Origin: Streptomyces sp. NBC_01216
GTDB taxonomy: Bacteria; Actinomycetota; Actinomycetes; Streptomycetales; Streptomycetaceae
NCBI RefSeq assembly: GCF_035994945.1
Contig: NZ_CP108677.1
Coordinates: forward strand, 1,612,001-1,676,000
Length of the DNA: 64,000 nucleotides
Direction of reading: 5' to 3'
In this document: positions 1,754-24,397 of the stretch, piece by piece
Numbering within the stretch: position 1 is the stretch's first letter
Layout: each line of letters begins with the position of its first letter
The notes under the pieces: generated by a model
What the model saw: only the letters and a program-made list of their open reading frames with translations
The model's database searches: none
What the model was told of the DNA's origin: nothing
Program-made: the position numbers and the translations under genes

Positions 1754-1844
1754 ACGCAATCCCCAGGGTCACACACGGTCGGTCGAGCGAGGAGCGTCCG
1801 GGCGAGGAGGCCCGAACGCCCGTCAGCGGGCAGGCTAGCGCCGC

Positions 1845-4580: not shown

Positions 4581-5095
4581 GCGTCCTCCGGGGTCTGTCG
4601 CGCGGCGCGCGGGTACGAGGGCCCGGACGTCGCGTCACGGGCCGAGCGCCATTACCGCCGAGCCGGGCGACCCGTACCCCATCGGCAGGCGGTCTGCGGG
4701 TACACCGGAGGTGAACTCCCGGTGGCGTACGCGGCCGAAGGCGGCCGAGGATGGTCGCTCGTGGGCGCGCTTCTCCCGTCCGGCTTTCGCAGTGTCGTTG
4801 AAAAAAACCCGAGTTTCCGCCAAGTCTCGCTGTCGTGTCTCGTGCCGGCCGGGGCCCCCGGCGACTCCTCGCCCGTGCTCTGACCTGAGGGTCGTCGGCT
4901 ACGGCGGGTGCTGACCTCTGTCGCGTGCGTGACCGGAACCGAGCCGGGGACCGGCATACCACCTGGCCTTTCACCATGAACTGGCCAGTACGCACCGAGT
5001 GGCGCGATTCGCTTCCCCCAAAGCATCACCCTGCGACCATCAACGCCAACGAAAATCAGCGCATCCACCACCGGACTGCCATGGGGGGAGTGACC
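4581..5095. promoter_or_regulatory. Divergent intergenic region between YfhO gene and Crp-like gene
   Basis: This 515-bp stretch separates the leftward glycan cluster from the rightward accessory block and must carry the promoters of both. Its right half (about 4970-5080) is less GC-rich than the flanking coding DNA, as expected of a promoter region. I see no convincing gene in it. Short frames on both strands have neither a ribosome binding site nor a plausible composition. I could not identify a clear TGTGA-N6-TCACA Crp site by eye. Confidence 0.45.
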
Positions 5096-5803
5096 ATGGG
5101 GCTGCTCGGTGAGGAACACGCGTTCGCGCGTGCTCTGACCGCCCAGGAGAACGAGAGCGTGATGGCGCTCGGGAGCCGGAAGTCCTACGCCGCCGACGCC
5201 CATCTCCTGACGGAGGGCGACCGTTCACGTCACGTCATGATCATCTTACGGGGGTGGGTGACCGTCTCCGTCGCCACCGACCGTGGTGCCACCCGGCTGA
5301 TACTCGGCCTGCGCGGCCCCGGCGAACTGCTCGGCGAGATGGCCGCCCTGGACAGCCGCCCCCGGAGCGCCACCGTGCGCGCGCTGGGCCCGACGGAGGC
5401 CCAGGTCATGACGGGGGACGCCTTCCGCCGCTTCCTCGCCCTCCACCCGCGGGTCAGTGGTCTGGTGATGCGCCAACTCACCTTCCGGCTCCGCAGCGCC
5501 GACCAGGAGCGTTCCGCGCTCGCCTCGCTCACCGTGCTGCAGCGACTGGCCGCCCGGCTCGTCGAACTCTCACGGTCCGATTCCTCCCACCCCTACGCGC
5601 CCTCCGCTCCGGACGGCCACGCCGGCTCGGCCGTCCACCTGGCCCAGGACGAACTGGCCGCCACCGTGGGCGCCACCCGCGAGGCCGTCGCCAAGGCCCT
5701 GCGGCTGCTGCGTACCCAGCGTGTCGTGCGTACCGGCAACCGCCTGGTGGAGGTACTCGACCCCGCGCTGCTCGCCCTTCTCGCGGAGGGTCATCAGGAG
5801 TAA
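5096..5803 (+). CDS. Crp/Fnr-family regulator with cyclic-nucleotide-binding domain
   Basis: This 235-residue protein has an N-terminal cNMP-binding beta-roll and a C-terminal winged helix-turn-helix. The phosphate-binding cassette (about residues 75-95) is well preserved: GELLGEMAAL, then an Arg followed by SATVRA. The conserved Glu and Arg that contact the cyclic phosphate and ribose are both present. The HTH region (about residues 180-225) contains HLAQDELAATVGATREAVAK. The ATG at 5096 was chosen over 5081 because GGGGGAG lies just upstream at 5 nt spacing. The gene is followed 96 nt later by a nucleotidyl cyclase homologue on the same strand, so it may be the receptor for that gene's product and may regulate the locus. 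Other Crp/Fnr members bind different ligands or none, so ligand identity is inferred. Confidence 0.88.
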   Translation: MGLLGEEHAFARALTAQENESVMALGSRKSYAADAHLLTEGDRSRHVMIILRGWVTVSVATDRGATRLILGLRGPGELLGEMAALDSRPRSATVRALGPTEAQVMTGDAFRRFLALHPRVSGLVMRQLTFRLRSADQERSALASLTVLQRLAARLVELSRSDSSHPYAPSAPDGHAGSAVHLAQDELAATVGATREAVAKALRLLRTQRVVRTGNRLVEVLDPALLALLAEGHQE

Positions 5804-5899
5804 CGCGCTCGCCCGGTCGTGTGTAAACGGCTACAGACGGCCAAGGTCCCGGGCCGGATGCTGGAGGGACGGCAGGACGAACACGACAGGGGGCAGGGC

Positions 5900-6751
5900 A
5901 TGGACCGCGACGCGACGGATGTCACCGAAGCGCACTACGAGTTGGTGATCAGCGTCGACGCGCGGCGTTCCGGCGCGTACGACGACGTCGACAGGCCGCG
6001 GATGCGCGAGCGGATCTACCGGATCCTCGAAGCGGCCTTCACCCAGGCCAAGGTGGTACGCGACGCCGTCCACATGGAGGACCGCGGCGACGGGGTGCTG
6101 CTGTCGGTGGCCGGCCGGGTCGCCGTGACCCGCCTGCTCGGCCTCTGGATGGTCGAGGTGCACGAGAACCTCCGGAACGAGAACCGGACCCTGCGCGTCC
6201 CGTTGGGCCTGCGGGTGGGCATGCACGTCGGTCCGGTCCGGCACGACGAGCGGGGGATCAGCGGACGCGCGGTCGACCTGGCCTGCCGGCTGGCCGACTC
6301 CCCCGTCGGGCGAAGGCTGTTGGACGCCGAGGAGGCCGACCTCGTCCTGGTCGCCTCGGAATCGCTGTACGAGGACGTGGTCCGGGGCGGCGGCAAGTTC
6401 ATCGAGCCCGCGCGCTACTCCCCCGCCCTGCTGACCCTCAAGGAGGGGGCGGTCACCGCCTGGTTCCAGCTTCCCGGACGGGCGGCCCCGGTGATCCCGG
6501 ACGGCGATCCACGGCCGGTCCCGGACCCCGCCGCGCAGAACGGCCGGTCCGGCGGCGGGAAGCCGGGCCCCGGCGGCGGCGACGCCGCCGCGCACCCCGG
6601 GCCGGACACGGACACCACCGACGACGCCGACGACGACGCCGGGGCCCGGTACACCGTCCACGGCGACATGTCCCAGCACCGCGACAACACCTACTGGCAG
6701 CCGGTGCACATCGGCCGGACCACCGGTGACACCGGTCGCCGGAAGGGCTGA
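5900..6751 (+). CDS. Divergent class III nucleotidyl cyclase homologue
   Basis: The N-terminal 190 residues of this 283-residue protein match the class III adenylate/guanylate cyclase catalytic fold. The two metal-binding aspartates appear to be kept: Asp20 in VISVDARRSGAY and Asp64 in RGDGVLLSVAG. The purine-selecting Lys position, four residues before Asp64, is Glu60. The transition-state motif reads GRAVDLACRLAD, so the usual Asn is Asp while the Arg is retained. These changes fit altered base specificity, such as the pyrimidine cyclases of Pycsar systems, or weakened activity. A Gly/Pro/Asp-rich linker follows, and the last 35 residues hold a short tail, VHGDMSQHRDNTYWQPVHIG. The ATG at 5900 has a G-rich ribosome binding site; an in-frame ATG at 5859 is an alternative. 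The gene ends 5 nt before the NTPase gene and is clearly in its operon. Confidence 0.75.
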   Translation: MDRDATDVTEAHYELVISVDARRSGAYDDVDRPRMRERIYRILEAAFTQAKVVRDAVHMEDRGDGVLLSVAGRVAVTRLLGLWMVEVHENLRNENRTLRVPLGLRVGMHVGPVRHDERGISGRAVDLACRLADSPVGRRLLDAEEADLVLVASESLYEDVVRGGGKFIEPARYSPALLTLKEGAVTAWFQLPGRAAPVIPDGDPRPVPDPAAQNGRSGGGKPGPGGGDAAAHPGPDTDTTDDADDDAGARYTVHGDMSQHRDNTYWQPVHIGRTTGDTGRRKG

Positions 6752-6756
6752 GCGAC

Positions 6757-9291
6757 ATGGCCGACGACCAGTACACGGACGACGCCGCCGAACCGGCGCC
6801 GCGCCACGGTCCCGACGGGCGCTCCGCCGAGGCCGAGGACCGGCCCGGGGCCGGACGGAAGGGTGACGGGCCGCGCGGGGCGGAACGTGGAGCCGACGGC
6901 GAGGACGAGTCCGCCGACCCCGAGGCCGCGGAACGCGACCGGGAGCGGGAGCGCGCGGCGGGACGCTTCAAGGAGCACACCCGCGACCCGCTCGCCGAGG
7001 AACAGAGCGACGACCCGGCCGGACCCACCGACCTCGCCGCCGCCGCGCGGGCCCGCCGGTCCACCCGGACGCTCTTCGAGAGCGGCCGGGACCTGCACAG
7101 CTTCGACCGTTCGTACATCGGCAGCGCCCACATCGGCGACATCCATCTGCGGATGGACGCCCGCCAGTCCGGCGCTGCGACGCGCACGGGTCCGGTACCC
7201 GACGAGGAACTGCGCGCCCTGCGCCGGATCCACGTGGAACCGCAGGGCTACTCCCGGCTGCGGGACGCGCTCCGCGCCCGGCGGCTCCTGGTGCTCGGGG
7301 CGGCGCCGGGCACCGGTCGCACCAGCACCGCGCTCTCCCTCCTCGACGAGGTCACCGCCTCCGCCGGGCCCGGTCCCGGCCACGCGGCGGGCCCGCGGGT
7401 GCTGCGGGTCGATCCGGACGGCGGTGTGCGCGGCCTGGTCGCCCTGGCGGCCTCGTCCGACGCGGCCCCGGGCGACGACGGCGGTCCGGATCTCCCCAGC
7501 ACGGGCTACCTCCTCGAACTCGCGCTCGCCAGACCGGGCGCGGTGCCGCCCGACGCCATGGACCTCGACGGTCTGGCCGCGGCCCTGGACGCCCACGGCT
7601 CCTTCGCGGTGATCGTCGTGCCGCTCGGTTCGGCGGCGAACCCGCTGCTCGCCGGCCGCTACGGCATGCTCTGCCCGCCCGCGCCCACACGCGAACTGCT
7701 CACCACGCGGCTCAGGGAACGTCTGGAGGACCACGTCGCCGCGGGCGGCCCGTCGGGGGCGGACGACGCCGCCGCCCGGGTCGAGGCCCTGCTCGGCCGC
7801 GCCGAGTCCCTGGTGGACCGGCGCGACGTCAGGGACGCGGTCGGACTCGGGGACCTGCGCCCCGCGGAGGCCGAGCTGCTCGCCTCGCTGCTCGCCGGCC
7901 ACCTGCTCGACGAGGTGTCCTCCGAGGAGTTGCTGGCCGGCTGCCGGAGCCTCGCCGCGGACCAGGCCCAGGAGTGGTTCACCGGCGTGGACCGGACCCT
8001 CGCCACGACACCCGAAGCGGACGACCCCACGACACGCGCGAACGCGGCGGCGCTCTTCCACCCCGTCGCGTTCCGTATCGCGCTCGCCGTCCTGGGCGGC
8101 GCACCGCACAGCGCCGTGGCCGCCGCCGCTCATCTGCTGACCTGGGAACTGTCCGTGCAGTGCGATCCGGAGAACGCCCCCGCGCGCCCGCTGTTCTGCG
8201 ACGATCCCGTCTCCGACCTGGCGCTCTCGCGCGCCGAACTCACCGACGGCCGGGTCGAGGTGGCGGGTGCCGAGGTCGACGCGCGACTGATCTGGTACCG
8301 CGGCTCCGCACTGCCCTCCGCGGTGCTGGCCGAGGTGTGGGACCGGCACTTCCCGGCCCGGACGCCGGTCGTGCGCTGGCTGCGGCTGCTGGCGGACGAC
8401 CCCCGGCCGCATATCTGGATGCGCGCCGCGGTGGCCGCCGGCGAGCTGTGCGTCAGGGACTTCGACCACGGTTACGCGGAACTGGTCCGGCCGCTCGCCG
8501 AGGCGTCCGGGCCCCGCCGGAGGATCTTCGCGGCCACCACCCTGGACCAGGCGGCCGGCCACCCCTCGCACGCCCGGGCGGTGCGCACGCTGGTGGCCGA
8601 CTGGAGCCGGTCCGGGACGAAGCCACTGCGCTGGACCGCGGCGATGACGCTGGGCTACGGGTCCGCCGCGGCCACGACCGACGACGCCCTGGACGCGCTG
8701 GCCCGGATCGGGGTGCGCGACGACGGGGAGCAGCTGGCCGTCGCCTCGTTCAACGTCGTCCGGCTGCTGGCCCTCCCGGACAGCGCGACGGTGCTGCGCC
8801 GGATGGCCGACTGGACCCATCACAAGCGCGCGGCACACCAGGACCTCGGGCTGGTCACCACCGTGCGCCTGGCCCTGAGCGAGGTGGACGAGGTACTGAC
8901 CGACGGGCCGGGCTCGCCCCTGGCGGACCTCGGGGACTGGCCGCTGCCGCTCGCGCTCGCCGTGACCCGCCCGGAACTCGTCGGGCCGATGGCCGACCTG
9001 ATGTGGACGGCGCTCAACACCGCGCGTTCCAGGGACGTGGCCGTGGACTCGTTGGAGGTCCTGCTGCGTTCCGCCGTGCGCAAGGACGGCACGGAGTGGA
9101 CCCGGCCGGGGTTGGCCGCGCTGCTGCCGGCGCTGGCCACCGAGGAACACGACCGGCGGCGGCTCGACTGGCTGCTGCGACGCATGATGAACGATCCGGA
9201 GAATCCGCTCCCCGACGCGCAGGCGCGCGCCCTGTGGTGGCTCGCCGTCACACCGGGGGACCGGACGGACGAGGAGGACAGGCATGGCTGA
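6757..9291 (+). CDS. P-loop NTPase with C-terminal helical repeats, STAND-like
   Basis: This 844-residue protein begins with a highly charged, probably disordered segment of about 100 residues. Next comes a short segment, SYIGSAHIGDIHLRMDARQ (about residues 118-135), that resembles the tail of the cyclase homologue upstream. A Walker A loop, LVLGAAPGTGRTSTALSLL, lies near residue 180. A candidate strand for Walker B reads FAVIVVPLGS, but the usual acidic residue is not obvious there. From about residue 400 the protein is Ala/Leu-rich and helical, with repeating segments such as AAVAAGELCVRDF and RRIFAATTLDQAAG, consistent with HEAT-like repeats. The layout recalls signal-transducing STAND NTPases used in bacterial conflict systems. 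The ATG at 6757 follows GGAAGGG, and the gene overlaps the next one by 8 nt. A precise family is not assigned. Confidence 0.66.
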   Translation: MADDQYTDDAAEPAPRHGPDGRSAEAEDRPGAGRKGDGPRGAERGADGEDESADPEAAERDRERERAAGRFKEHTRDPLAEEQSDDPAGPTDLAAAARARRSTRTLFESGRDLHSFDRSYIGSAHIGDIHLRMDARQSGAATRTGPVPDEELRALRRIHVEPQGYSRLRDALRARRLLVLGAAPGTGRTSTALSLLDEVTASAGPGPGHAAGPRVLRVDPDGGVRGLVALAASSDAAPGDDGGPDLPSTGYLLELALARPGAVPPDAMDLDGLAAALDAHGSFAVIVVPLGSAANPLLAGRYGMLCPPAPTRELLTTRLRERLEDHVAAGGPSGADDAAARVEALLGRAESLVDRRDVRDAVGLGDLRPAEAELLASLLAGHLLDEVSSEELLAGCRSLAADQAQEWFTGVDRTLATTPEADDPTTRANAAALFHPVAFRIALAVLGGAPHSAVAAAAHLLTWELSVQCDPENAPARPLFCDDPVSDLALSRAELTDGRVEVAGAEVDARLIWYRGSALPSAVLAEVWDRHFPARTPVVRWLRLLADDPRPHIWMRAAVAAGELCVRDFDHGYAELVRPLAEASGPRRRIFAATTLDQAAGHPSHARAVRTLVADWSRSGTKPLRWTAAMTLGYGSAAATTDDALDALARIGVRDDGEQLAVASFNVVRLLALPDSATVLRRMADWTHHKRAAHQDLGLVTTVRLALSEVDEVLTDGPGSPLADLGDWPLPLALAVTRPELVGPMADLMWTALNTARSRDVAVDSLEVLLRSAVRKDGTEWTRPGLAALLPALATEEHDRRRLDWLLRRMMNDPENPLPDAQARALWWLAVTPGDRTDEEDRHG

Positions 9292-10402
9292 GGGCTTCGG
9301 CGCGGCGGCGGGCGAGAACCCCGGGGGCCACGCGGTCTCCGGCGCGGGGCCCGCCGGCCCGTTCCTGCGGGAGTACCAGCCGACGGGACCCTTCCGGCAG
9401 TCGGGCGCCAGGACGGCCTCGGTGCTCTTCTACCGGAACGGCGGCTACAGCGTGGCCAGCGTCTCCGGCGTCCGGCACCACGACAAGCGGGCGCTGGCCC
9501 GGCCGCACACCATCTGCGAGATCGCGCTGGGCACCTTCGTGACCCGGCTGGAGCTGGAGCTGCCCGCGGCGGGAGGCGCCACGTTCTTCAAGGCGGAGGT
9601 GGACATCCACTGGACGGTGTCCGATCCCCACCTGGCGGCCACCGAGGTGGTCACCGACGTCGCCGAGCGCCTCACCGCCCCGACGCTGGAACGCCTGCGC
9701 GAGGTGACCGCCGAGTTCCCGGTGAGCCAGGCCGAACAGGCCGACCGGGCCCTGACGCGGCACTGCGGGGGCGGGCGGTGGGACGACCTGGGCGCCGAAC
9801 TCGGCCTGCGGGTGCGGCTGTATGTGCGGCTGCGGGTGGATGACCGGACGATCGCGCACATGGACGGACTACGGGCCGCGCACGCGGAGGCGGAGGTGAC
9901 CCGCGTCCACCAGGACACCTTCCGGAACATGCTGCGGGGCGGCGAGCTGGACCAGCTGAGCTACATGCTGGCGGCCAGGCCGGAGGAGGCCAAGGACTTC
10001 CTGGAGAAGATCCGGCAGGAGGGCCGGCAGGACGAGAAGGAGCGCGTCGACCGGCTCTTCGCCATGGTCGCCAGCGGCCAGATCCAGTCCTCGGAGGTCG
10101 AAGCGCAGGCTCTGGAACTCCTCAACCGGGGGCGGCACCGCGTCCAGGGGCCGATCGGCTCGTTGCCTCCCCACAGGTCCGCACCGCAACTGGAGCCGGG
10201 TGCGGCACCCCGGTACACGCCGGACTGGGTGGCGGACGAACCGCCCTCCCGGGCTCGGCGCGGGCCGGACACCGCCGAGGCCGGGCCGGGCGGAGGGGAC
10301 CGCGCTCCGTGGGAGGACGCCGACGCGCACGGCGAAGCGGATCCGCCGCGTCGCGGGAGCCGCGACCGGGACGACGGCTGGTCCTGGGCGGAGGAGGACT
10401 GA
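9284..10402 (+). CDS. SPFH/band-7-like protein
   Basis: This 372-residue protein appears to have an SPFH-like core. After a disordered leader there are beta-rich segments (SVLFYRNGGYSVASVSGVRH), then FFKAEVDIHWTVSDPHLAAT around residue 105-125. The x-W-x-V-x-D-P pattern there is the hallmark seen in prohibitin/stomatin/flotillin domains. A helical region rich in charged residues follows (about residues 190-285), probably for oligomerisation, and the last 90 residues are Pro/Arg/Asp-rich and disordered. SPFH proteins form membrane-associated scaffolds or rings. No clear transmembrane segment is visible here, so membrane contact would come through a partner such as the downstream membrane effector. 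The gene overlaps both neighbours (8 nt and 1 nt), which means tight translational coupling. Confidence 0.6.
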   Translation: MAEGFGAAAGENPGGHAVSGAGPAGPFLREYQPTGPFRQSGARTASVLFYRNGGYSVASVSGVRHHDKRALARPHTICEIALGTFVTRLELELPAAGGATFFKAEVDIHWTVSDPHLAATEVVTDVAERLTAPTLERLREVTAEFPVSQAEQADRALTRHCGGGRWDDLGAELGLRVRLYVRLRVDDRTIAHMDGLRAAHAEAEVTRVHQDTFRNMLRGGELDQLSYMLAARPEEAKDFLEKIRQEGRQDEKERVDRLFAMVASGQIQSSEVEAQALELLNRGRHRVQGPIGSLPPHRSAPQLEPGAAPRYTPDWVADEPPSRARRGPDTAEAGPGGGDRAPWEDADAHGEADPPRRGSRDRDDGWSWAEED

Positions 10403-10953
10403 TGGCGGGCGGCGGGGGTCCGGAAACGTCCCCCGACCGGGTCGCGCCGGTGCCGGACGGGGGTCTGCACGGGCGCGACCCGGCGGGGGAACGCATCGCT
10501 GAACGGCTGTTGAACACGATTCGGGAGGACCTGGGCCGGGCCGACTCCAAGGCGGCCGTCCTGCTCTCCGGGGCGCTGGCGCTGCCCGCGTTCCTGATCG
10601 GGTGGCACGGCGCGCCGGACTGGCGCGGCGCGGCCGACATCGCGCTGGTGGTCGCCGGCGTGCTCTGGGCCGTCGCGGTGACCGCGCTGGTCCGGGCCCT
10701 GATGCCACGTACCGGCACGGTGCGCGGGCGGCCGGGCGTGACGTTCTTCGGCGACCTGCTGCCTCCGCGGGATTTCGCGCGGCTGTCCGCCGAGGTCACC
10801 GAAGCCGGCCGCGACCCGGTCGGCTGGCTGCTCGTCCAGGCGGTGGACGTCAGCTCGATCCTGTCCGCGAAGTACCGGGCCATCCGCTGGGGGGTCACCG
10901 CGCTGACCCCGGCGGCGGCGCTGGCACTGGTCTGGAGCCTGACCGCGCGCTGA
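10402..10953 (+). CDS. Pycsar effector-like transmembrane protein
   Basis: This small 183-residue membrane protein has a hydrophilic N-terminus of about 45 residues, the conserved segment LGRADSKAAVLLSGALA (residues 44-60), two adjacent transmembrane helices (about 51-69 and 78-100) and a C-terminal helix (about 160-181). A D-x-KA motif at the mouth of the first helix, followed by a paired helix, is characteristic of the Pycsar effector transmembrane family (PycTM), whose members damage the inner membrane when their cyclic nucleotide is made. The gene is the last of a cyclase-NTPase-SPFH-effector operon. Its ATG overlaps the upstream TGA by one base, and a perfect hairpin terminator follows within 2 nt of its stop. 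It is the best candidate for the toxic output of that operon. Confidence 0.75.
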   Translation: MAGGGGPETSPDRVAPVPDGGLHGRDPAGERIAERLLNTIREDLGRADSKAAVLLSGALALPAFLIGWHGAPDWRGAADIALVVAGVLWAVAVTALVRALMPRTGTVRGRPGVTFFGDLLPPRDFARLSAEVTEAGRDPVGWLLVQAVDVSSILSAKYRAIRWGVTALTPAAALALVWSLTAR

Positions 10954-10954
10954 G

Positions 10955-10993
10955 CCGGGCCGTGGCCGCCGGCGGGCGGCGGCCACGGCCCGG
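10955..10993 (+). terminator. Perfect 16-bp hairpin terminator
   Basis: The arms at 10955-10970 and 10978-10993 are exact reverse complements of 16 nt separated by a 7-nt loop. The hairpin starts directly after the TGA of the Pycsar-effector-like gene. No T-run follows, as is common for Streptomyces terminators. It separates the cyclase operon from the vWA/tubulin-like module. Confidence 0.8.
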
Positions 10994-11164
10994 CGTGTGC
11001 GGTTCCCGGGCGCCGGAAGGCCCTCGGGGCTGCCGGGGCGGGCCGGCGAACACCGGAGGCGTCCGGGCGGTACGTGACCGCCCGGACGGCTCGGCGCCGC
11101 GGCCCGGCCCACGCCGTCGGCGCACCACCACGCAACGAAGCAGAGACGAACCAAGGGGACGGCC

Positions 11165-13507
11165 GTGAGAGCAGTCAGAGGAAGACGACGGACACGAGGG
11201 GACCGGGAGCGTGGCGCGGCGGCCCGCGCTTTGGGCGGCGTGGCGGTGCTGTTGTCCCTGCTGGCGCCGACCGCCCCGGCGACGGCACCGGCGGCGGACG
11301 CGCGTCCCGCCTTCGCGTCGGTGAACTACGTGGTCGCCGTCGACGAGTCGGCGAGCCTCGCGCAGCGGGACATGGAGGCAGAGAAGGCCGCCGCCGCGCG
11401 CATCGCGCTGGGCGACGTGTCGTCGTCCTCACAGGTGACGGTCTTCGGATTCGCGGCCGCCGAGTCCTCCGACCAGCGCGCGCTGGACCCGGTGTGCCCG
11501 AAGACCACCCTGGACGCGGCGGGGCGCGCGTCGATCGGCCGCTGCGTCGCCAAGCTCCGCGGCCGCAAGAAGAGCGAGGGCACCGGCACCGACTTCCCGA
11601 GCGCGATACGCCAGGCCGTCCACGAGCTGAGCACCGGCACCGATCCGTCGGTGCCCCGGGTCCTGTTCCTGCTGACCGACGGCGAGATGGACGTCAGTGG
11701 CAGCCCGCAGTACGGCGACCCCGCGCACCGCGAGGCCGAGGGCGAACGGCAACTGGAACGGGAGCTCAAGAACGCCGCGGCACAGAACGTCCAGATCTGG
11801 CCGCTCGGCTTCGGGCCCAAGCCGGACAAGGCCCAACTCGACCGGATGGCCGCGGGCGGCTACCAGAAGGGCTGTGTCGAACTGCCCTCCGCGCGGCCCA
11901 GGGCCGACAAGGTCTCCGGCGCGAAGGACGTCGGCCCGACGCTGGAGAAGATCTTCGCCGCCGCGCACTGCCTGCGGTACCAGCCGGGGCCCAGCGGGCG
12001 TCCGCCCAGCACCCTGGAGATCGGTATCTCGCCGCTGGCGACGGTCGGCAGCATCGTCGTCGACAAGGGCGACCCGGCCGTGACGGTCACCTACCTCGAT
12101 CCGAACGGGCACCCCGTTCCCACTTCGGGCAAGTACCGGGCCTCGGAGTTCGAACTGGCGGGCGCGGGCGACGCCGTGGAGGCGCTGAGGATCACCGACC
12201 CGGTGCCCGGCGTCTGGAAGGTGAAGGTCGAGGCCCCCGAGGGGCACCGTTCGTTGCCGGTCGGCGTCAGCGTGCTGTGGCAGGGCGAACTGCGCGGTGC
12301 CATCACCATGAACCCGCCCTCGCCGCAGGCCGGTGAGGAGACCACGGTGACCCTGCGCCTGCAGACCCGCGAGGGCTACGAGATCAAGGACCCGCGCGAC
12401 TACGCCGGACTGCGGGTCAGCGGCCGGCTGACCGGCGACGGCTTCGCGCCGCTGGAGCTGCGCCTCGCCGACGACGGCAAGGCCCCGGACGACAGGAAGA
12501 GCGACGGCTCCTTCACGGGCACCGTGCGGGTCCCCAAGAGCGCCGACGGCGCGCTGAAGGTGAGCGGGACACTGACGGCTTCGGGGCTCGCCGCCGACAC
12601 CCGCAGCGAAAGCGGACAGATCGCGCCGGGCACGCTGACCGTGACCACCGCCCTCACCCTGGCCGACGCGGACGTCCACCCCGGTGCCCGGTTCACCGGC
12701 ACGCTGGCCGTCCACAACACCGGCGACACCCCGCACACCCTGCGGCTGTCCGTCGCCGACCTCGCCTCCGGACTGCTGTCGGTCGAGCCGGCCGAGATCG
12801 AGCTGAAGCCGGGCGACTCCGGGACCCGGACGGTGACCGTCGAGGTCGCTCCGGCGGCCGTCTTCGGCGACCGTCTCGGCGACGACGGACTGCGGCTCGG
12901 CGGCACGGTGACCGTCGTGGACACCACCGACGAAGACCGGACACTGGTGCGCTCCCCGCTGTCGGTCCGGGTCACACCGGAGCCCGGCGCCTGGGACGCG
13001 TTCTGGGACGCGTACTGGGGGGCGTTCCTCGGTGCGGTCCTGCTGATCGCGCTGGTCGCGGCCGTTGCGCTCGCCTGGTCTCGCCTGCGCCGCGCCCGCC
13101 GTGACCCGCACGGACTGGTCCTGCGGCTCGTGTCCGAGGCGGGTGACGTCCTCGGCGAGCACACGGCGGGCCACGGCCAGCGCCAGTGGTACGGGTTCGC
13201 CGTCGTCGAGGCCCACCGCGATCCGCGCATCGAGCGCCGGAACAACGGCCCGTACGCGGTCCGGCGCAGCCCCGAGGGCGGCGCGGTCCTGCGCACCCGC
13301 GGCGGCGGGACCGCGCGGCTCCCGGCCGGCGGACGCGTCCCGCTGACCGACACGCTGAGCCTCTCGCTGGGCGAGGAGACCCGCGCCGCGAAGACCCGTC
13401 GGACACGGCCCGGAAAGGGTGGGACCGGTCGGAGCGGGCGGACGACGGGCCCCACTCCCCCGCCCGCCGAGGGCGGGGCGTCGAGCCCCTACGAGACCTA
13501 CCTGTGA
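11165..13507 (+). CDS. Secreted, membrane-anchored vWA-domain protein
   Basis: This 780-residue protein has an Arg-rich N-terminus and a hydrophobic signal segment (ALGGVAVLLSLLAPTAPATA) ending near residue 47. A von Willebrand factor A domain follows. Its MIDAS metal site is intact: Asp60-x-Ser62-x-Ser64 in VVAVDESAS, Thr in GTGTDF and Asp in LLTDGEMD. The middle region (about residues 280-600) is beta-rich and Ig-like, with segments such as LAVHNTGDTPHTLRLSV that resemble CARDB/NEW3-type domains. A single transmembrane helix lies at about 618-643, and the C-terminal cytoplasmic domain of about 130 residues ends in a Lys/Arg-Gly-Pro tail. The GTG at 11165 follows AGGGGAC. The protein could report an extracytoplasmic interaction to the tubulin-like and GTPase proteins encoded downstream. 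Confidence 0.85.
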   Translation: MRAVRGRRRTRGDRERGAAARALGGVAVLLSLLAPTAPATAPAADARPAFASVNYVVAVDESASLAQRDMEAEKAAAARIALGDVSSSSQVTVFGFAAAESSDQRALDPVCPKTTLDAAGRASIGRCVAKLRGRKKSEGTGTDFPSAIRQAVHELSTGTDPSVPRVLFLLTDGEMDVSGSPQYGDPAHREAEGERQLERELKNAAAQNVQIWPLGFGPKPDKAQLDRMAAGGYQKGCVELPSARPRADKVSGAKDVGPTLEKIFAAAHCLRYQPGPSGRPPSTLEIGISPLATVGSIVVDKGDPAVTVTYLDPNGHPVPTSGKYRASEFELAGAGDAVEALRITDPVPGVWKVKVEAPEGHRSLPVGVSVLWQGELRGAITMNPPSPQAGEETTVTLRLQTREGYEIKDPRDYAGLRVSGRLTGDGFAPLELRLADDGKAPDDRKSDGSFTGTVRVPKSADGALKVSGTLTASGLAADTRSESGQIAPGTLTVTTALTLADADVHPGARFTGTLAVHNTGDTPHTLRLSVADLASGLLSVEPAEIELKPGDSGTRTVTVEVAPAAVFGDRLGDDGLRLGGTVTVVDTTDEDRTLVRSPLSVRVTPEPGAWDAFWDAYWGAFLGAVLLIALVAAVALAWSRLRRARRDPHGLVLRLVSEAGDVLGEHTAGHGQRQWYGFAVVEAHRDPRIERRNNGPYAVRRSPEGGAVLRTRGGGTARLPAGGRVPLTDTLSLSLGEETRAAKTRRTRPGKGGTGRSGRTTGPTPPPAEGGASSPYETYL

Positions 13508-13512
13508 CGCGT

Positions 13513-13554
13513 GGGCGGGCCGGTGGTGCGCGGGGGCTCCGCGCACCCCGCCCG
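13513..13554 (+). terminator. Hairpin downstream of the vWA gene
   Basis: An inner 8-bp stem (13526-13533 with 13539-13546, 5-nt loop) is extended by GGGCGGG at 13513 pairing with CCCGCCC at 13548. It starts 5 nt after the stop of the vWA gene and about 100 nt before the tubulin-like gene. It may terminate or partly attenuate transcription, so the vWA gene could be expressed at a different level from the genes after it. Confidence 0.6.
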
Positions 13555-13652
13555 CCCCGGCCCCCGTGCCGCACGGCCGTCGCGCCGCGCGGCACCCCCT
13601 GAGTACCGATGACGGAACGGCCGCCGCTACGGCCGCAAGCGGGAGGGAACCC

Positions 13653-17492: not shown

Positions 17493-20119
17493 GTACCCCC
17501 GAGGACATCGGCGCCGTCGTCCACCTGGACCTCCGGTCCGGGGCGGCGGAGATCGGCGACGCCCCGGCGCTGCGGGCCAGGGTCGCCCGGGAGCTGGGAC
17601 AGGCGGGACTGCCGGAACCCGACCACCCGCTCTTCCTGGTCGTGGACACCCCCGCCGGGCTGACCGACCATCAGCGGCAGTACGAACTGCTCGCCGCCTA
17701 CCGCGCGCTGGGCGAGGTACGGCTGCTGGTGCTGCTGGTGGGCAGCGCCCCCGGCACGTACGCGGGGGCGGACGAGGCGTTCCGGGCGGACCGGCGTCTG
17801 GTGCGCCCCGCCGTGCTGCGCTCCTCCGGCACCGCCCTGCTGTGGGCGGGCGATCTGCGCTCCGCCCGGACGGCACTCGAACAGCCCGCCCCCGACGAAC
17901 CTCAGGCGCTGGCCGTCCTGGTGGACCTGCTGTCGGTCCCGGACGTGTTCCTGCGGGTGCTCGACGAGGTGCGCACCCTGCCGGATGCCGTCGCCGCGCC
18001 CGGAGTGCGGCTGCTGGAGCAGGATCTGCCGCCGGAGGTCCGCGACCACGCCTGGCGCGACGCGCTCACCCGGTTCGCGGGCGAGGACGGCTCGCCCCGG
18101 CCGGATGCCCCGTCGGCCGCGTGGTCCGCCACGGACCTGCCGGAGCCGCTGCGGGGCCTGGTGGCCGGCCGGGGCGCCGGCGACCAGCCGCACCGGGAAC
18201 CGGGGGGCGCCGCCGAGAGCGCGTACCGGGCGTGCGCGGAGGCCCTGGACGAAGCGGAGGACGCGCTGGCGGACCTGCGGTCCCTTCCCGGGCTGCTGAG
18301 CTCCCGCGGCAGGGAGACCCTGGAGGCGGATCTGGAACGGGCGGACCGGGCCCTGGGAGAGTACCGGGAGCTGGTCGCCACCGCGCTGCACAGCGGCGGG
18401 TCCGGTGCGTCGGCCGAGGCCGCGGAACGGCTGACGGCGCTCGGGCTGCGCGTCCCGTCGGCGGAGGGCGTGGGCGAACGGATCGGCGAGGGCCTGCGGG
18501 AGTTCGCCGGCCGGCTGCTCGGGCAGGGGCTCGCCCTGCGCGCGGTCGCCCAGCGATTCACGGCCCTCGCCGGCCGGGTGGAGCCCGTGCCGGGTTCGGC
18601 GCTGCTGCCCCGGCTCGCCGGACACTCCGCCGACGCGGTGGCCCGCCGGGCGGCGGAGCCGGGCGGCCCGGTGTCCCCGGCCACGACCGGAGTCACCGCG
18701 GTGGCGGCGCTCGCGGGGCTGCTCGGCGGGCTGTGGCAGGGCCCGTCGGCCGCCCTCGCGCTCGCCGTCCCCCTGGTGGTCCTCGGCGCGGCACTGCTCG
18801 GCGCCGCCCGGCTGCGGGACGGCGCGCGTCCAGGGCACCGGCCCGTCGGCCCCCGGATCGCGGCCTTCTTCGGCGCCGCCGCCGGAGTCGGCCTGGCGTA
18901 CGCGACAGGGCCCGCGCTCTGGCTGAGCGCGGTGGGCCTGACCGCGGGGCTGGTGCTGGCGGTGGAGGCGGCGCGCCGGCGGTGGCGCACCGCGGCGGAC
19001 TTCTGGGCCGCCCACCGGGGCACCGCCGTGGTGCGCGGCGCCCTGGACGGACTCGACGCCCTGCTCGCCGAGGCGGTGCGGGAGCACTGGGCCGCCGAGG
19101 AACGCCTGTACTGCGCCGACGCCGCCCGGTCCGTGGCGGGGATGCTGCGGGCGACGGCGGCCGCAGCGGACGGCGAGGCGGTGGCCGCGCCGGAACGGCG
19201 CACCGCCGGTCAGGCGACCCCCGGAGGCCCGGCCGCCGAGGACGACTGGCTGTGCAGCGCCTCGGCCCTGGAGACGGCCGCCTTCGCCATGCCCGGCGAC
19301 GGCGGCGCGGACGACGACTGGGCGAGCGCCTACGCGTGGGAGGACGGGCCCGCCCGGGAACCGGTCGAGGGACGGTCCTCCGCCGCCGGCTCGGACTCGT
19401 GGGAGGGGACCGGCACGTGGCAGGACTCGCAAGGACCGTGGCGGGACCGGACCGCCGCGGTGCCGCGCTGGCTGGAGCGGGAGAGCGGTGACGGCGGGCC
19501 GGAGCTGGTCACCACGCTGGCCGGAGATCTGACGGACGCGGCGCTGGCCGCGATGGCGCCGTACTGGGGTGCCGTCGAGCGCGGGCAGGCCGGTGCGTCG
19601 GCCGGGCGGCGCACCGAGGAACGGGTCCGCGAGCTGCTCGCGACGGCCCGCCGTCACCTGCGGGTCAACGGCGTCCTGGCCCCGCCTCCGTTCGCCGCCC
19701 GGCACCGCACGCGCAGCGCCTCGGCGAAGCTGCTGGGCACCGATCCGTACCGGGTCGCCGAACTGGTCGGAGCGGAACCGGACCGGCAGACCGTGGTGCA
19801 GCTGTCGTCTCCCGAGCAGAGCACGCTGCTCAGCCGTGATCCGGCCGCGGCGGTGTGGATCAGGTTCGCTCCGGACGCCGTGCGCGGCGAGGTCGAGACG
19901 GCCTGGCGGGCGAGCGGTACCGCATGGGCTGAGGAGACCTTGTGGACCGCGTCGGGGCGGTACGCGGGCCTGATCCGGCTCACGCCGCTGCGCATGGGGG
20001 TGGTGGACACCGTCCGGCCCCGCCAGGGAGCCGAGCCGGCGGACCTCCCCGGGCCGGCGGACCCCCCCTACGTCGACCGGGCGGACGCATACGGGCGCGG
20101 GGACGGGGACCGCTGGTGA
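17489..20119 (+). CDS. Multi-pass membrane protein of the tubulin-like/GTPase operon
   Basis: I do not recognise the family of this 876-residue protein. The N-terminal 170 residues look alpha/beta, with hydrophobic strands followed by LFLVVDTPAGL and VRLLVLLVGSAPG; the D-T-P-A-G element resembles a GTPase G3 motif, but no P-loop precedes it. A Leu/Arg/Glu-rich helical region follows. At about residues 393-495 there are four hydrophobic stretches (AVAALAGLLGGLWQ, ALALAVPLVVLGAALLGAAR, IAAFFGAAAGVGLAYATGPA and LWLSAVGLTAGLVLAVEAAR), interpretable as four membrane helices. The C-terminal half (to 876) is soluble, acidic in its middle and mixed alpha/beta at the end. The GTG overlaps the upstream stop by 4 nt, so it is coupled to the tubulin-like protein and may anchor it to the membrane. 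Confidence 0.6.
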   Translation: MSTPEDIGAVVHLDLRSGAAEIGDAPALRARVARELGQAGLPEPDHPLFLVVDTPAGLTDHQRQYELLAAYRALGEVRLLVLLVGSAPGTYAGADEAFRADRRLVRPAVLRSSGTALLWAGDLRSARTALEQPAPDEPQALAVLVDLLSVPDVFLRVLDEVRTLPDAVAAPGVRLLEQDLPPEVRDHAWRDALTRFAGEDGSPRPDAPSAAWSATDLPEPLRGLVAGRGAGDQPHREPGGAAESAYRACAEALDEAEDALADLRSLPGLLSSRGRETLEADLERADRALGEYRELVATALHSGGSGASAEAAERLTALGLRVPSAEGVGERIGEGLREFAGRLLGQGLALRAVAQRFTALAGRVEPVPGSALLPRLAGHSADAVARRAAEPGGPVSPATTGVTAVAALAGLLGGLWQGPSAALALAVPLVVLGAALLGAARLRDGARPGHRPVGPRIAAFFGAAAGVGLAYATGPALWLSAVGLTAGLVLAVEAARRRWRTAADFWAAHRGTAVVRGALDGLDALLAEAVREHWAAEERLYCADAARSVAGMLRATAAAADGEAVAAPERRTAGQATPGGPAAEDDWLCSASALETAAFAMPGDGGADDDWASAYAWEDGPAREPVEGRSSAAGSDSWEGTGTWQDSQGPWRDRTAAVPRWLERESGDGGPELVTTLAGDLTDAALAAMAPYWGAVERGQAGASAGRRTEERVRELLATARRHLRVNGVLAPPPFAARHRTRSASAKLLGTDPYRVAELVGAEPDRQTVVQLSSPEQSTLLSRDPAAAVWIRFAPDAVRGEVETAWRASGTAWAEETLWTASGRYAGLIRLTPLRMGVVDTVRPRQGAEPADLPGPADPPYVDRADAYGRGDGDRW

Positions 20120-20177
20120 CCCGCATCCCGCACCCCTGCCCACGGCCCACGCAGGCACGAAAGGACGGCGACCGCAG

Positions 20178-22286
20178 GTGACCCGCAGCTCCACCTCCCC
20201 CGGCACGGGGCCGGACCCCGCGCGGGGGAACACCCTCGCCTTCACCGTTCCCTCGGGACGGCGGCGCGTGGCCCCGGCACGTCTCGGCCCGGAGGGCCGT
20301 CGCGATCCCCTCCTGCCCCAGCAGATCCGCAACGGCATCCTCGACGACGAGGGCCTGCCGTTCGTCCAGGTGCGGCTGTCCGCCGCCGACGCGGCGAACC
20401 CCGCCTCCCGCGCGCTACTCGACACGGAAGCGGGCACCGCCCTGCGTCTGCACCGGGCGCTCGCCGACACGGAGTACGCCTCGCTCTTCCCGACGATCCT
20501 CGGGTACGAGCTGGACACGGCCGAGCCGTTCCTGCTGTACGCGGCGCCACGCGGTGTCCCCACCGCGCGCACCCATGTGATGTCGGCGACCGACCAGCGC
20601 GTCCTCGCCCGCGAGCTGCTGCTGGCGCTGTGCCTGCTGGACGGTCAGGGCCTGGTGCTGCGCGGCGTCTCGCCCGCCACCGTCCTCTGGGACGGCGCGT
20701 CCGTCCAGCTCTGGGGCCTGGAGAGCGCGGCCCCCGCGGGCAGGCCCAGGACCCCGTGGGGTCGGGCGCCGTACAGCTCCCCCGAGCAGCGTCGCGGCCA
20801 CGGGCTGGTCGAGGCCCGCGACAGCGTGTGGAGCGCCGCGCAGGTCCTGTACCAGCTCGTCACCGGCAGGCCGGGGCCCGACGACCGGGCTCCTGGCGAC
20901 CTCGCCGAGCACCGGGTCCTCGCCGAGACCCTGCGCGGTGCCTTCGCCCCGCTGGCGGCCGACCGGCCGGCACCGGCCCGGCTGCTCGACCTGCTGGCCC
21001 CGGGAGCAGCGGGTCGGGTCGCCGTCCCCGCGCCCGTCGAGGGGCCGAACCCGCAGAGGGAGGCGTTCGAGCACGCGCTGCGACTCAAACGCGAGGCCCC
21101 GCCCGCCGATCCGGGGCCGGCCGCCGAGCGGGGCGCCGGCGAGGTGCTCTGCCCGTACTGCCTGGAGACCATCCGGCTCGACCTCGGCGCGCTGTTCGTC
21201 ACCGACAGCAGGATGCAGTACCAGGCGTTCGACCCGGCGGAGATCACCAACCCCCTGCGCCGCCAGGACGTCATGCGGGGGGCCGTCCAGAAGTGCGCGG
21301 GGGATCCGGACTTCCCCGACCACTTCATCCCGGTGCCCTACCTCACCTACGGCCGGCCGCTGACCGTCGCCATGGTCGGCCAGTCCTCCGCGGGCAAGAG
21401 CCATCTGCTCACCCAGATGATCGCGGAGATCACCGACGGCGGCCTGGAGCCGTACGGCCTCACCGCGCAGTCGGTGAACCCGGAGCAGCACGCGCGGTTC
21501 GTACGGGAACGGGTGCAGCCGCTGCGCAACGGACAGGTCCTCGGCCACACCGGCTCCGTGGCGGGCAGGGGCTACGCCCGCTTCGCCGAGTCCCTCCTCC
21601 TCACCGACGCCCGGGGGCGGGTCCGCCCGGTCGCCTTCTTCGACCTCGGCGGCGAGGACCTCGTCCGGACCGACTCCACCCTCCGGTTCCTCCTCGGTGT
21701 CGACGCCCTGGTCTTCGTCGTCGATCCGGCGCTGGCGCTTCCGCTGCCGCACCTGGACCACGCCCGGGAGCGATGGGGGCTGGAGGTGAACCGGGACGGG
21801 GACCTGGCCTTCGGCACCGTGCTGGACCGGCTGCCGAAGAACGGCCCGTATCTGGACGTGGCGGCGGCGATGGTGCTCGGCAAGGCCGACCTCCTGCGCT
21901 TCGAGGCACCGGTCGACCGGTGGCTGGCCGAGCCGCGGCGCGCCGCGCTCGACCCCGAGCGGATGCGGGAGGAGAGCCGGGACGTCTACGGCCTGTTGCG
22001 TCAGCACGCGGGCCAGGCGTGGCTGCGTCCCTTCGACACGGTGCGCCGCTGCACACTGCACGTCGCCTCGGCCACCGGGGGCCAGGAGGAGCACGGCCGC
22101 TATCCGACGGGGTCGAAACCGCGCCGGGTACTGGAGCCGCTGGTGTCATTGCTCGCGATGCACGGCCTGATCGACGTGCCCGGTGGTGTCGAGGCGTTGA
22201 CCGTGGGGGCGGAGCCCGCCTGGGAGTCGGTGCCCCCGACGGACGCCCACGGTCCGGCGGAGACGGTCGGAGGAGGTGCGGAGTGA
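20178..22286 (+). CDS. Pseudokinase-zinc finger-GTPase fusion
   Basis: This 702-residue protein has at least three parts. Residues about 60-300 resemble a protein kinase, but the catalytic HRD loop is LRGVSPATVLWDG and the DFG position is LWGLES, so the catalytic Asp and metal Asp are missing. The APE-like PYSSPEQ and VWSAAQVLYQLVTG are kept, so this is a pseudokinase. A CPYC zinc knuckle (Cys325, Cys328) with a later Cys near 372 starts the next part. The GTPase part has a P-loop AMVGQSSAGKSHLLTQM (about 397-412), a G3-like FFDLGGEDL (about 487-495) and a G4-like VLGKADLL (about 566-573). It most resembles the double-GTPase (DO-GTPase) families described in bacterial conflict systems. The GTG start is 58 nt after the previous gene, and the stop overlaps the next start. 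Confidence 0.72.
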   Translation: MTRSSTSPGTGPDPARGNTLAFTVPSGRRRVAPARLGPEGRRDPLLPQQIRNGILDDEGLPFVQVRLSAADAANPASRALLDTEAGTALRLHRALADTEYASLFPTILGYELDTAEPFLLYAAPRGVPTARTHVMSATDQRVLARELLLALCLLDGQGLVLRGVSPATVLWDGASVQLWGLESAAPAGRPRTPWGRAPYSSPEQRRGHGLVEARDSVWSAAQVLYQLVTGRPGPDDRAPGDLAEHRVLAETLRGAFAPLAADRPAPARLLDLLAPGAAGRVAVPAPVEGPNPQREAFEHALRLKREAPPADPGPAAERGAGEVLCPYCLETIRLDLGALFVTDSRMQYQAFDPAEITNPLRRQDVMRGAVQKCAGDPDFPDHFIPVPYLTYGRPLTVAMVGQSSAGKSHLLTQMIAEITDGGLEPYGLTAQSVNPEQHARFVRERVQPLRNGQVLGHTGSVAGRGYARFAESLLLTDARGRVRPVAFFDLGGEDLVRTDSTLRFLLGVDALVFVVDPALALPLPHLDHARERWGLEVNRDGDLAFGTVLDRLPKNGPYLDVAAAMVLGKADLLRFEAPVDRWLAEPRRAALDPERMREESRDVYGLLRQHAGQAWLRPFDTVRRCTLHVASATGGQEEHGRYPTGSKPRRVLEPLVSLLAMHGLIDVPGGVEALTVGAEPAWESVPPTDAHGPAETVGGGAE

Positions 22287-24397
22287 GCGACTTCCAGGGG
22301 TGGACGGCTCCGGGCGCCGGTCCCACCGGTCCATCCGGTGCGGTGCACCAGCTGGTGTTCCGCTGGGACGGCAACCAGGGCGGCAGGCAGGACACCGGAA
22401 TGACCGCCGTCGCCCATTCCTGCGCGCCCGGACGCGCGGCGGAGCTGGGCCGCGAACTCGGGCCCCTGCTGTGGGTGTCCGGAACGGCGGCCACCCGGCC
22501 CAGCATCGTCCGTACCGTCACCCGCGACGACGCGGGACACGGTGAGGTCATCCTCGTCCGGCGCTGGCCCACCCACGACCGGGCCGGCCGGCCCAGCACC
22601 GTCAGTCATGTACTCGTGGGCGGGACGAGGACCCTGAAGACCCGTCAGTGTCTGGGCCTGGCCTACAAGGGATGGGGCACGCGGGAGTCCGCCGAACGCG
22701 CCTCCGGGCGGCTGCCCACCCTGCGGAGCGCGGAGCTCGACGACCTGGCGCGCCGAAGACTCCTTGTCATGGGGAAGCGACTGCCGACGGTGCGGGACGC
22801 GTTGGTGCAGGTGACCGCCGCATGGCTGCGTGACCCGGCGCAACGGGTGTCACTGCTGGCCGACGGGGAGGAGAAACCAGGCTGGCCTGATCCGGAGGGA
22901 ACGCCCCTGGTGTACCTGGGGCTGTTCCTGCTCTTCGGTTCCTGGCTGGGTCAGGAGTGGACGTTCGCCACCCACGACACGGTGGACACCCATCCGCTGC
23001 GGCTGATGTCCGTCCCGCTCTGGGAACCGGACGCGGGCGGCGCGGGCCCGCTGGCCCGGGTCTCCGGGGACCGCCCCGCACCACGCGGAGACGTCGAACA
23101 GCGGGCGGCGGCCCTGCTGGTCGACCGTCTCCTGACCCACCCGCTGGGCGATCGCCCCGGGCTGCCGCAACTGACCGAGGAGCTCCGGGGCGCCGCGACA
23201 CTGGACTGGTCGCGGCGCAGGGCCCTGCTGGAGCGTGTCCTGGACACCGAGCGGCGCTCCGCGTCCGGCGGGACCGCCCCGCACCACCCCGGGGAGCCCG
23301 GACGTGAGCCGGGGATACAGCCCGGACGGAGCCCGGAGCGTGCGACGGCCCGCGAACCCGAGCGAACGACCGGGTGGGTGGCGGAGACGGAGGACGCCGC
23401 TCGACGCGCCCAACTGTCGCTGTCCCGGCACCCGCTGGAGCGGCCTCCGGTGTCACGGCCCGCGCCGCGGGGCCGCGCACCGGAGGCGGTCCGGGGCACG
23501 GTCCCGGCTACCGGGGCACCGGGGTGGGAGCCGGCGCAGTCCCCGGACCTTCCGCCGGCCCGTCCGACGACACCCACGCAGGCCGCCTCGTCCGCCGGGG
23601 CCGGGCCGTCGCTCCACGAGGAACTGCGAACGTACCGGGGTCCCGCGAGGCAGAGCGTGCTGGCGGCCCGCCTCCGCCAGACGCCGGACGAGCACCTCCT
23701 GGAGGCCCTGCGGACCCCCGGGCTGCCGCCCTCCGCCGTGGACCTGCTGTTCGCGGAACTGCGACAAGGTCCTCGTCTCAGGGCACGTACGCTGCCGGTG
23801 CGCCACGCGCTGTGCACGGAGGTGCTCCGCAACCACCTCTCGCTCGCCGCCGGCCCACCGGACCCCGCGTCCGACTCCCGGACGGCCGGGGACGACCGGG
23901 CGGAACGGGCCGCGGAGCTGTTCACCTGGGCCGTGGCCCCCCTGGCCCGGGAGGAGCGCCATCTGCGGGACCTGCAGGAGCTGTTGCACCGGATGACCCA
24001 CGACCGTCGCCCCGCCGCGAGTGCCTGGCTCCGCCGGTGCGTCACCGAACCGGAGAACGGAGTCGTCCCCGATCTCCCGCCCGTGCTCTGGCAGCAGGTG
24101 GTCCGGATGGTCGTCCGCCAGGGCGCGGCCACGGCCCAGGCCGGACCGTCGGCGGCGGTTCCCCCGGGCGGCTCCGTATCCCCCGCCCCGGTCGTTCCCT
24201 CCGCGACTGTGGTGCCTCCCGCGTTCCCGGCCGGGACGGGCAGAGACGGGCCGGCGTCGTCGCCTCCCGCCGGTCCGGAGATCCACTCCGTCGGCGGACG
24301 ACTCTCCGAGCTGGCGACGCGGCCCGGCTGCGTCCTGGGGACGGGCGCGTTCGCGGTGCTCGCCCTGATCGTCACGATCGTGGTGCTGTTCGTGTGA
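22283..24397 (+). CDS. GTPase-associated protein 1 (GAP1)-like, tail-anchored
   Basis: This 704-residue protein has an N-terminal segment (GAVHQLVFRWDGNQGG, then VAHSCAPGRAAELGRELGPLL and VILVRRWPTHDRAGR) that matches my memory of the N-terminal and middle domains of the GTPase-associated protein GAP1 of Streptomyces GTPase conflict systems. A Pro/Arg-rich disordered linker (about residues 320-450) leads to an all-helical region. The final 23 residues, CVLGTGAFAVLALIVTIVVL and a few more, form one transmembrane helix, so the protein is tail-anchored. Its GTG overlaps the TGA of the GTPase gene by 4 nt (GTGA), which is the strongest sign that the two proteins act together. No catalytic motif is evident. 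The family assignment rests on recognition plus context. Confidence 0.68.
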   Translation: MSDFQGWTAPGAGPTGPSGAVHQLVFRWDGNQGGRQDTGMTAVAHSCAPGRAAELGRELGPLLWVSGTAATRPSIVRTVTRDDAGHGEVILVRRWPTHDRAGRPSTVSHVLVGGTRTLKTRQCLGLAYKGWGTRESAERASGRLPTLRSAELDDLARRRLLVMGKRLPTVRDALVQVTAAWLRDPAQRVSLLADGEEKPGWPDPEGTPLVYLGLFLLFGSWLGQEWTFATHDTVDTHPLRLMSVPLWEPDAGGAGPLARVSGDRPAPRGDVEQRAAALLVDRLLTHPLGDRPGLPQLTEELRGAATLDWSRRRALLERVLDTERRSASGGTAPHHPGEPGREPGIQPGRSPERATAREPERTTGWVAETEDAARRAQLSLSRHPLERPPVSRPAPRGRAPEAVRGTVPATGAPGWEPAQSPDLPPARPTTPTQAASSAGAGPSLHEELRTYRGPARQSVLAARLRQTPDEHLLEALRTPGLPPSAVDLLFAELRQGPRLRARTLPVRHALCTEVLRNHLSLAAGPPDPASDSRTAGDDRAERAAELFTWAVAPLAREERHLRDLQELLHRMTHDRRPAASAWLRRCVTEPENGVVPDLPPVLWQQVVRMVVRQGAATAQAGPSAAVPPGGSVSPAPVVPSATVVPPAFPAGTGRDGPASSPPAGPEIHSVGGRLSELATRPGCVLGTGAFAVLALIVTIVVLFV

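Follow-up and report, generated by a model that had tools for sequence, protein, structure and literature searches.

The ten genes and their assignments

We analysed a stretch of 64,000 nucleotides, called the window here, of Streptomyces sp. NBC_01216 (assembly GCF_035994945.1, contig NZ_CP108677.1, positions 1,612,001-1,676,000 of the forward strand), and within it a block at window positions 5096-24397 that a first-pass annotation had described as two conflict-type modules standing side by side. Gene calls were based on open reading frames (ORFs) and on the guanine-plus-cytosine content of third codon positions, and these confirmed the ten co-directional plus-strand genes that had been placed between a glycan cluster and tdk. 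The ten genes fill the block, and its left neighbours (the glycan genes) and right neighbour (tdk) are on the minus strand. The rest of the window, said to be mostly minus strand, is indeed so by the ORF table, 35960-38647 and 56333-58645 being among the exceptions that lie on the plus strand. Both modules are present, but they recur in Streptomyces as one ten-gene unit, and the evidence that this recurrent composite of two known kinds forms a unity is good. The features are as follows.

4800..4821, plus strand: upstream element AACCYGAGTT, conserved 5' of crp
crp, 5096..5803, plus strand: Crp-family transcription factor with an intact cyclic-nucleotide pocket (PF00027, 1.1e-18; PF13545/HTH_Crp_2, 5.1e-12)
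5817..5838, plus strand: CRP-type cis-element between crp and cyc, with the core TGTGTAAACGGCTACA at 5820-5835
cyc, 5900..6751, plus strand: relative of class III nucleotide cyclases (PDB-chain profile match to Ma1120, 1.7e-7)
ntp, 6757..9291, plus strand: STAND-like P-loop NTPase with HEAT repeats (nSTAND3 and HEAT_2 in relatives)
spfh, 9284..10402, plus strand: SPFH/Band-7 domain and helices; no transmembrane segment predicted by hydropathy scan
pyc, 10402..10953, plus strand: two-helix membrane effector PycTM (PF18967, 6.4e-18; PADLOC PycTM, 2.7e-13)
vwa, 11165..13507, plus strand: vWA domain with DxSxS motif, weak Ig-like matches and a C-terminal transmembrane segment (PF00092, 8.9e-6)
tub, 13653..17492, plus strand: tubulin-like GTPase with a long C-terminal region (PF13809, 1.5e-67)
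mem, 17489..20119, plus strand: membrane protein of no assigned family (hydrophobic segments 140-159, 418-443 and 474-495)
dog, 20178..22286, plus strand: kinase-like N-terminal region, zinc ribbon (CPYC) and DO-GTPase
gap, 22283..24397, plus strand: GAP1-like by position, with a C-terminal transmembrane segment (hydrophobic 679-704)

In the window, ntp and spfh overlap by 8 bp, spfh and pyc by 1 bp, and tub and mem, as well as dog and gap, by 4 bp, and the remaining junctions are gaps of 96 bp (crp-cyc), 5 bp (cyc-ntp), 211 bp (pyc-vwa), 145 bp (vwa-tub) and 58 bp (mem-dog).

Family searches with the window proteins alone support the Crp, PycTM, vWA and tubulin labels, with the PycTM match (PF18967) lying above the curated cut-off. 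With E<=0.1 as the threshold, they left cyc, ntp, spfh, mem and gap without a Pfam match. The cyclase, nSTAND3, SPFH and DO-GTPase2 labels are supported via relatives, that is, by members of family alignments that include the window protein and that should be read as selections (cyc 35, ntp 35, spfh 30/32, dog 18/21, gap 19/21 and mem 21/23 members). Of the gene classes named in the first-pass annotation, the GAP1-like one has no profile support among its 19 members. Among the ntp members, nSTAND3 was matched in 14 of 35 (best 3.6e-5) and HEAT_2 in 5 of 35. For spfh, Band_7 was matched in 4 of 30 members (best 3.3e-7) and a PDB sequence search was unproductive; its predicted model (mean predicted local distance difference test, pLDDT, 75.9) retrieved prohibitin at 2.3e-8 with Foldseek, as well as stomatin and HflK/C. 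At E<=0.001, 28 of the 29 matches carry descriptions that name prohibitin, stomatin, HflK/C, flotillin or further SPFH complexes, the remaining one being described as vault, and the template-modelling score reaches 0.69 against the stomatin SPFH domain, so that by this model spfh is predicted to have the SPFH fold.

In the second half of the block, the tub product is 1279 amino acids long, and the tubulin signature is present in 60 of the 62 sequences considered. The vwa product has its transmembrane segment at 612-642 and the motif DESAS at 60. A Pfam search of vwa as a single sequence matched no FNIII domain, and neither HRDC nor FNIII was matched in any of the ten window proteins, again as single sequences, at E<=0.1. 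For mem, Pfam families were each found in at most 1 of 21 members. The dog window protein alone matches DO-GTPase2 at 0.0059, under the curated cut-off, and among its 18 members DO-GTPase2 was matched in 9 (best 5.3e-7), DO-GTPase1 in 4 and Pkinase in 1, with a kinase-type PADLOC match at 5.7e-6 and the alignment columns GQSSAGKS, DLGGED and CPYC. Directly 3' of dog, with a 4-bp overlap, lies gap. Pfam holds GAP1 models, and no GAP1-named family was matched in the 19 gap members at E<=1; we call gap GAP1-like for its position and its hydrophobic C-terminus.

Recurrence and probable mobility of the unit

Scanning named genomes for relatives of the window tubulin protein yielded 57 loci (loci are numbered with L and genomes with G). 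The scan reaches close relatives only, and the set is no measure of frequency for distant systems or for a first half that lacks the tubulin. All ten genes, with order and strand kept, were found in 39 of the 57 loci, which bears out the expectation that the genes of the block occur together in other strains and at other loci; the last gene is cut in three of these (L054, L056 and L057). As the ten-gene order recurs so often, the arrangement reflects more than chance. Another 14 loci are cut at contig ends, with the gene order agreeing as far as the sequence reaches, and four deviate. L012 has no matches to dog and gap. In L036 (Streptomyces adustus, 846-7131), vwa-tub-mem-dog-gap is preceded by other genes, the first half being replaced by a phosphorylase protein that also matches a kinase weakly, followed in the list by an SF1 helicase and a protein of 411 amino acids. 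In L045 (Streptomyces muensis, 5338-10464), a 74% identical tubulin forms the C-terminal part of a 1708-amino-acid protein whose neighbours are an abhydrolase-EAD2, a VMAP-C-EAD2 and an AAA gene, probably MoxR-like, and the other nine unit genes are unmatched. In L055 (Actinomadura terrae, 17413-19315), relatives of the cyclase and of crp lie downstream of the DO-GTPase rather than upstream, that is, the same parts in a different linkage. The named matches come from Streptomyces, Streptacidiphilus and one Actinomadura, and the ten-gene order and strand are maintained from a tubulin identity of 91% down to 52% (L075).

Among 61 genomes, the own genome included, the tubulin is present in 11 and an NTPase match above 300 bits in 10, and the two are neighbours in 9. 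The exceptions are G018 and G041, with a tubulin and no adjacent NTPase, and G014, with an NTPase and no tubulin. Weaker NTPase matches were found in 14 genomes, of which G041 only has the tubulin, on a different contig, and an adjacent tubulin is absent from the 11 of these stretches that were fetched (L072 and L078-L087). In three operons consisting of the first half only (L082, L084 and L087), the adjoining gene encodes 1299 amino acids and, as we take it, resembles rpoC; this neighbour suggests a fixed core position for the version that consists of the first half only.

The distances of the two halves are correlated with r=0.985 over 40 loci and with r=0.898 in the close set of 32 loci, and none of 2000 permutations reaches either value (L055 and L032 were left out of this test). 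The gap between the halves, from pyc to vwa, ranges from 57 to 423 bp in 50 of 53 loci (L032 left out), and the junction measures 8, 8 and -4 bp in the diverged L073-L075. In L032 the gene lengths are odd, suggesting frame breaks in ntp and vwa.

An ordinary core locus was ruled out, as the block tubulin is found in 11 of the 61 genomes versus 52 for tdk. In strains that lack the block, tdk lies beside different genes, as had been anticipated, and in relatives that have the block and tdk on one contig (G004, G007, G015, G030 and G035) the two are separated by 160 kb-2 Mb. Among 16 fetched tdk stretches, that of G015 alone has the window's two glycan genes close to tdk, separated from it by 2.9 kb that contain two small genes, and is an apparent empty site. 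(In G012, tdk is matched three times, and one of the matches has an internal stop.) By similarity, the flanks of the block form 22 clusters among 35 downstream and 24 among 38 upstream flanks, although the flanks compared are short (~1-2.5 kb), which possibly inflates the number of clusters. The tdk/tubulin identities to the window, in %, are 87/88 for G007, 84/50 for G004, 83/51 for G015, 81/86 for G001, 78/61 for G018, 77/53 for G035, 76/88 for G030, 74/50 for G036, 69/47 for G040 and 69/43 for G041, so that the divergence of the block is discordant with that of tdk. The varying neighbours, the apparent empty site and this discordance fit horizontal transfer, and the G015 site also fits the earlier proposal that the block was acquired as a unit. 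Judged from identities and flanks, the block probably moves between genomes, and we consider the evidence for mobility fair.

The cis-element and the cyclase

Between crp and cyc lies TGTGTAAACGGCTACAGAC, which has the form TGTG-N8-YACA; we take this to be the CRP consensus and label the element accordingly as CRP-type. The strict motif TGTGTAAACnnnYACA was found in 49 of 52 loci and the loose motif TGTGn8YACA in 50 of 52, with near-matches by eye in L035 and L039. In the 1.14 Mb of these 52 loci, both strands considered, the strict motif occurs 49 times and always in front of cyc, by which an origin by chance was ruled out; the loose motif occurs 70 times, leaving about 20 copies elsewhere. 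The own genome (7.7 Mb) holds a single copy of the element, allowing up to two mismatches. As the distance from the element to cyc is spread over all three frames (18, 17 and 14 of 49), the element is not coding, and a coding start of cyc was thereby rejected as its explanation. The table of base pairs across the element selects on the core, and the outer pairs alone are informative: at position 9, counted from the centre, Watson-Crick pairing (A-T, C-G or G-C) is seen in 11 of 54 sites and G-G in 35, mostly of the main clade, and 8 others are unpaired, which we regard as moderate evidence for a dyad. By alignment to E. coli CRP, the local Crp has Asp136 at the base-reading position, equivalent to Ser128 of CRP, in 52 of 52 unit loci; a receptor of cyclic guanosine monophosphate (cGMP), XC_0249, has Glu at that position (PMC11224242). 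The element is a putative binding site of the local Crp, and the evidence for control through a dedicated cis-element is fair. The second element, AACCYGAGTT, is found ~230-330 nucleotides 5' of crp in the window and in 25 named loci (not all loci extend so far) and is partly palindromic in several of them.

The similarity of cyc to Ma1120 is weak, and the predicted model of cyc has a pLDDT of 82.9. The metal aspartates Asp20 and Asp64 are present in 53 of 53 loci, the residues of the substrate pair, Glu60 and Gly119, in 52 of 53 each, and Arg130 in 51 of 53. Glu60, which precedes the second metal residue Asp64 by four positions, and Gly119 correspond in the alignment to K101 and D157 of Ma1120. 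The guanylyl cyclase Cya2 carries this E-G pair naturally, and the K101E/D157G exchange in Ma1120 raised guanylyl activity, with adenosine triphosphate (ATP) still preferred (PMC4215837). From these residues cGMP is a candidate messenger, to be regarded as a lead only. None of the PADLOC models matched cyc at E<=0.1, and cyc is thus unrecognised as a PycC pyrimidine cyclase. In one of the alignments (A1), one cyclase relative matches Biotin_lipoyl strongly (3.3e-18), which may reflect a fusion or an artefact of gene calling.

Interpretation and comparison with known systems

We place at about even chance the interpretation that the block is a single mobile ten-gene conflict system of the immunity type, gated by a cyclic mononucleotide. 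The joint recurrence of the two halves in fixed order as a mobile unit makes them probably one defence system, and a conflict role is further favoured by the tubulin fused inside the VMAP-C locus of L045 and by G007 (L105:1050-7568), where VMAP-C is among the genes that adjoin the ten-gene unit in divergent orientation. We infer the defence role, as well as the identity of the messenger and the order of events, which might run as follows. The STAND-like protein, with an SPFH scaffold near the membrane, would sense an invader or envelope damage and free the cyclase, which would then produce a cyclic nucleotide, possibly cGMP. The local Crp would read this messenger and act at the element before cyc to raise the expression of the unit, and PycTM would read it too and perturb the membrane. 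Alongside this, assembly of the tubulin-like protein at the membrane would be switched by the DO-GTPase together with a GAP1-like partner, and vwa and mem would link this tubulin machine to the outside, so that the infected compartment would be sealed or killed. A more specific proposal is doubtful: a cGMP-gated immune system, in which one messenger acts through a receptor-regulator and an operator dedicated to it and so links a pore-type effector with a tubulin machine under GTPase control. If it is true, mycelial bacteria would answer infection with a cytoskeletal response.

Several observations weigh against these interpretations and need to be considered. The cyclase has Asp in place of the usual transition-state Asn in 53 of 53 loci; Ma1120 is also without this Asn and yet active (PMC4215837), which is no proof for cyc. 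Asp136 of Crp is also present in 10 of 12 loci that have the first half only, where the cyclase residue at the position of Glu60 is K, A, E or Q; given this and the preference of the exchanged Ma1120 for ATP, the assignment of cGMP is weak. In ntp, the Walker A Lys is replaced by Arg in 63 of 67 sequences (Lys in 2, a gap in 2), so that a functional Walker A, as expected of a STAND NTPase, was not found and switching by ntp is doubtful. The halves are found apart too (L036, L068, L070, L071, L072, L078-L080 and others), and the distances of crp correlate with those of the other genes at just 0.22-0.42 in the close set. The diverged units L076 (G036) and L077 (G040) have no matched pyc and scant or zero room for one, by which PycTM appears dispensable for the unit, and crp is on the opposite strand in L077. 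As for mobility, old sub-lineages could partly be behind the discordance of tdk and tubulin, and zero matches were obtained in the searches of plasmids and phages with ntp and of viral contigs with tub and crp. With tub, the plasmid search gave a single match, an 11.85-Mb Nonomuraea record that is probably a chromosome.

Tubulin and SPFH proteins serve ordinary cell biology too, and the block might be a horizontally moving control of envelope or development, in which a cyclic-nucleotide Crp circuit runs a tubulin/GTPase cytoskeleton on the hyphal membrane or wall with no role in immunity. The hydrophobic stretches of vwa, mem and gap, the Crp circuit and the restriction of the named matches to Streptomyces, Streptacidiphilus and one Actinomadura, from a scan confined to close relatives, would suit such a function, to which we give a modest chance. 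Developmental genes are usually core, and the patchy tubulin with its many flanks, the PycTM effector and the tubulin fusion within the L045 VMAP-C locus speak against it. That the two halves are independent defence systems, mechanistically separate and linked by co-transfer alone, we consider unlikely. Each half does occur alone, the strict element stands solely before cyc, and the pyc-vwa gap of at least 57 bp in 50 of 53 loci means that vwa may have its own promoter; island pairs, however, usually shuffle, and here ten genes are constant in order and strand over the whole range of tubulin identities, with the halves' distances strongly correlated and junctions of a few bp in the diverged loci. 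A strict Pycsar system (pyrimidine cyclase and PycTM) with passenger genes would account for a PycTM that matches both Pfam and PADLOC models, and is nonetheless very improbable: cyc matches no PADLOC model, L076 and L077 are without a matched pyc, and the Glu of cyc four positions ahead of its second metal Asp stands in place of an Arg that EaPycC has for cytidine triphosphate (R142, ahead of D146; PMC11224242).

If the block is indeed a single conflict system, two predicted and largely untested families of conflict genes are joined in a unit that can be defined and transferred and that has a cis-element of its own. The catalytic residues are mutable, which makes the function of the tubulin/DO-GTPase systems directly testable, the messenger and the switch being predicted. 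The unit also suggests a route by which multicellular bacteria might couple a cytoskeleton-like machine to their immune signalling.

The first-pass interpretation is supported in part. No description of a ten-gene fusion with a cyclic-nucleotide/PycTM half was found in the literature searched, with subscription papers and supplementary files outside the search, but the tubulin/GTPase half is of a published kind (Kaur, Burroughs, Iyer and Aravind 2020; PMC7159879). According to that work, the tubulin theme makes up ~52 percent of GAP1-N2 neighbourhoods, is mobile and occurs in actinobacteria. The block resembles this theme in its single tubulin with a long C-terminal region, its zinc-ribbon DO-GTPase with a Walker B Glu, its gene in the GAP1 position and its membrane-bound vWA protein, and the second half thus fits it, except that its GAP1 is without profile support. 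The block differs from the theme in that the HRDC-FNIII protein is unrecognised and in that the front five-gene half (Crp, cyclase, STAND-like, SPFH and PycTM) is added, of which there is no mention in the passages of that work considered here. The tubulin theme and VMAP are also described there as mutually exclusive in actinobacteria (PMC7159879), unlike our finding of VMAP-C in 9 of 11 tubulin genomes and in 35 of 61 overall. In VMAP/MoxR-vWA ternary systems, cyclic-mononucleotide cyclase and Band-7 are coupled effector domains and tubulin effectors are rare, and CRP-like regulators are linked to some standalone peptide-processing systems (PMC7159879); unlike the ternary systems, the unit is without a MoxR ATPase or VMAP gene and its vwa has a C-terminal transmembrane segment. 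As in Pycsar (PMC11224242), the cyclase gene lies near a PycTM effector and a protein with a cyclic-nucleotide-binding domain is present; unlike Pycsar, this domain sits in a transcription factor, additional genes are present, and cyc, which carries a guanylyl-type pair, is not recognised as a PycC. The cyclase itself is like Cya2 and Ma1120 in its metal Asp pair and Arg, sharing the E-G pair with Cya2 and the absence of the Asn of the N-R pair with Ma1120 (PMC4215837).

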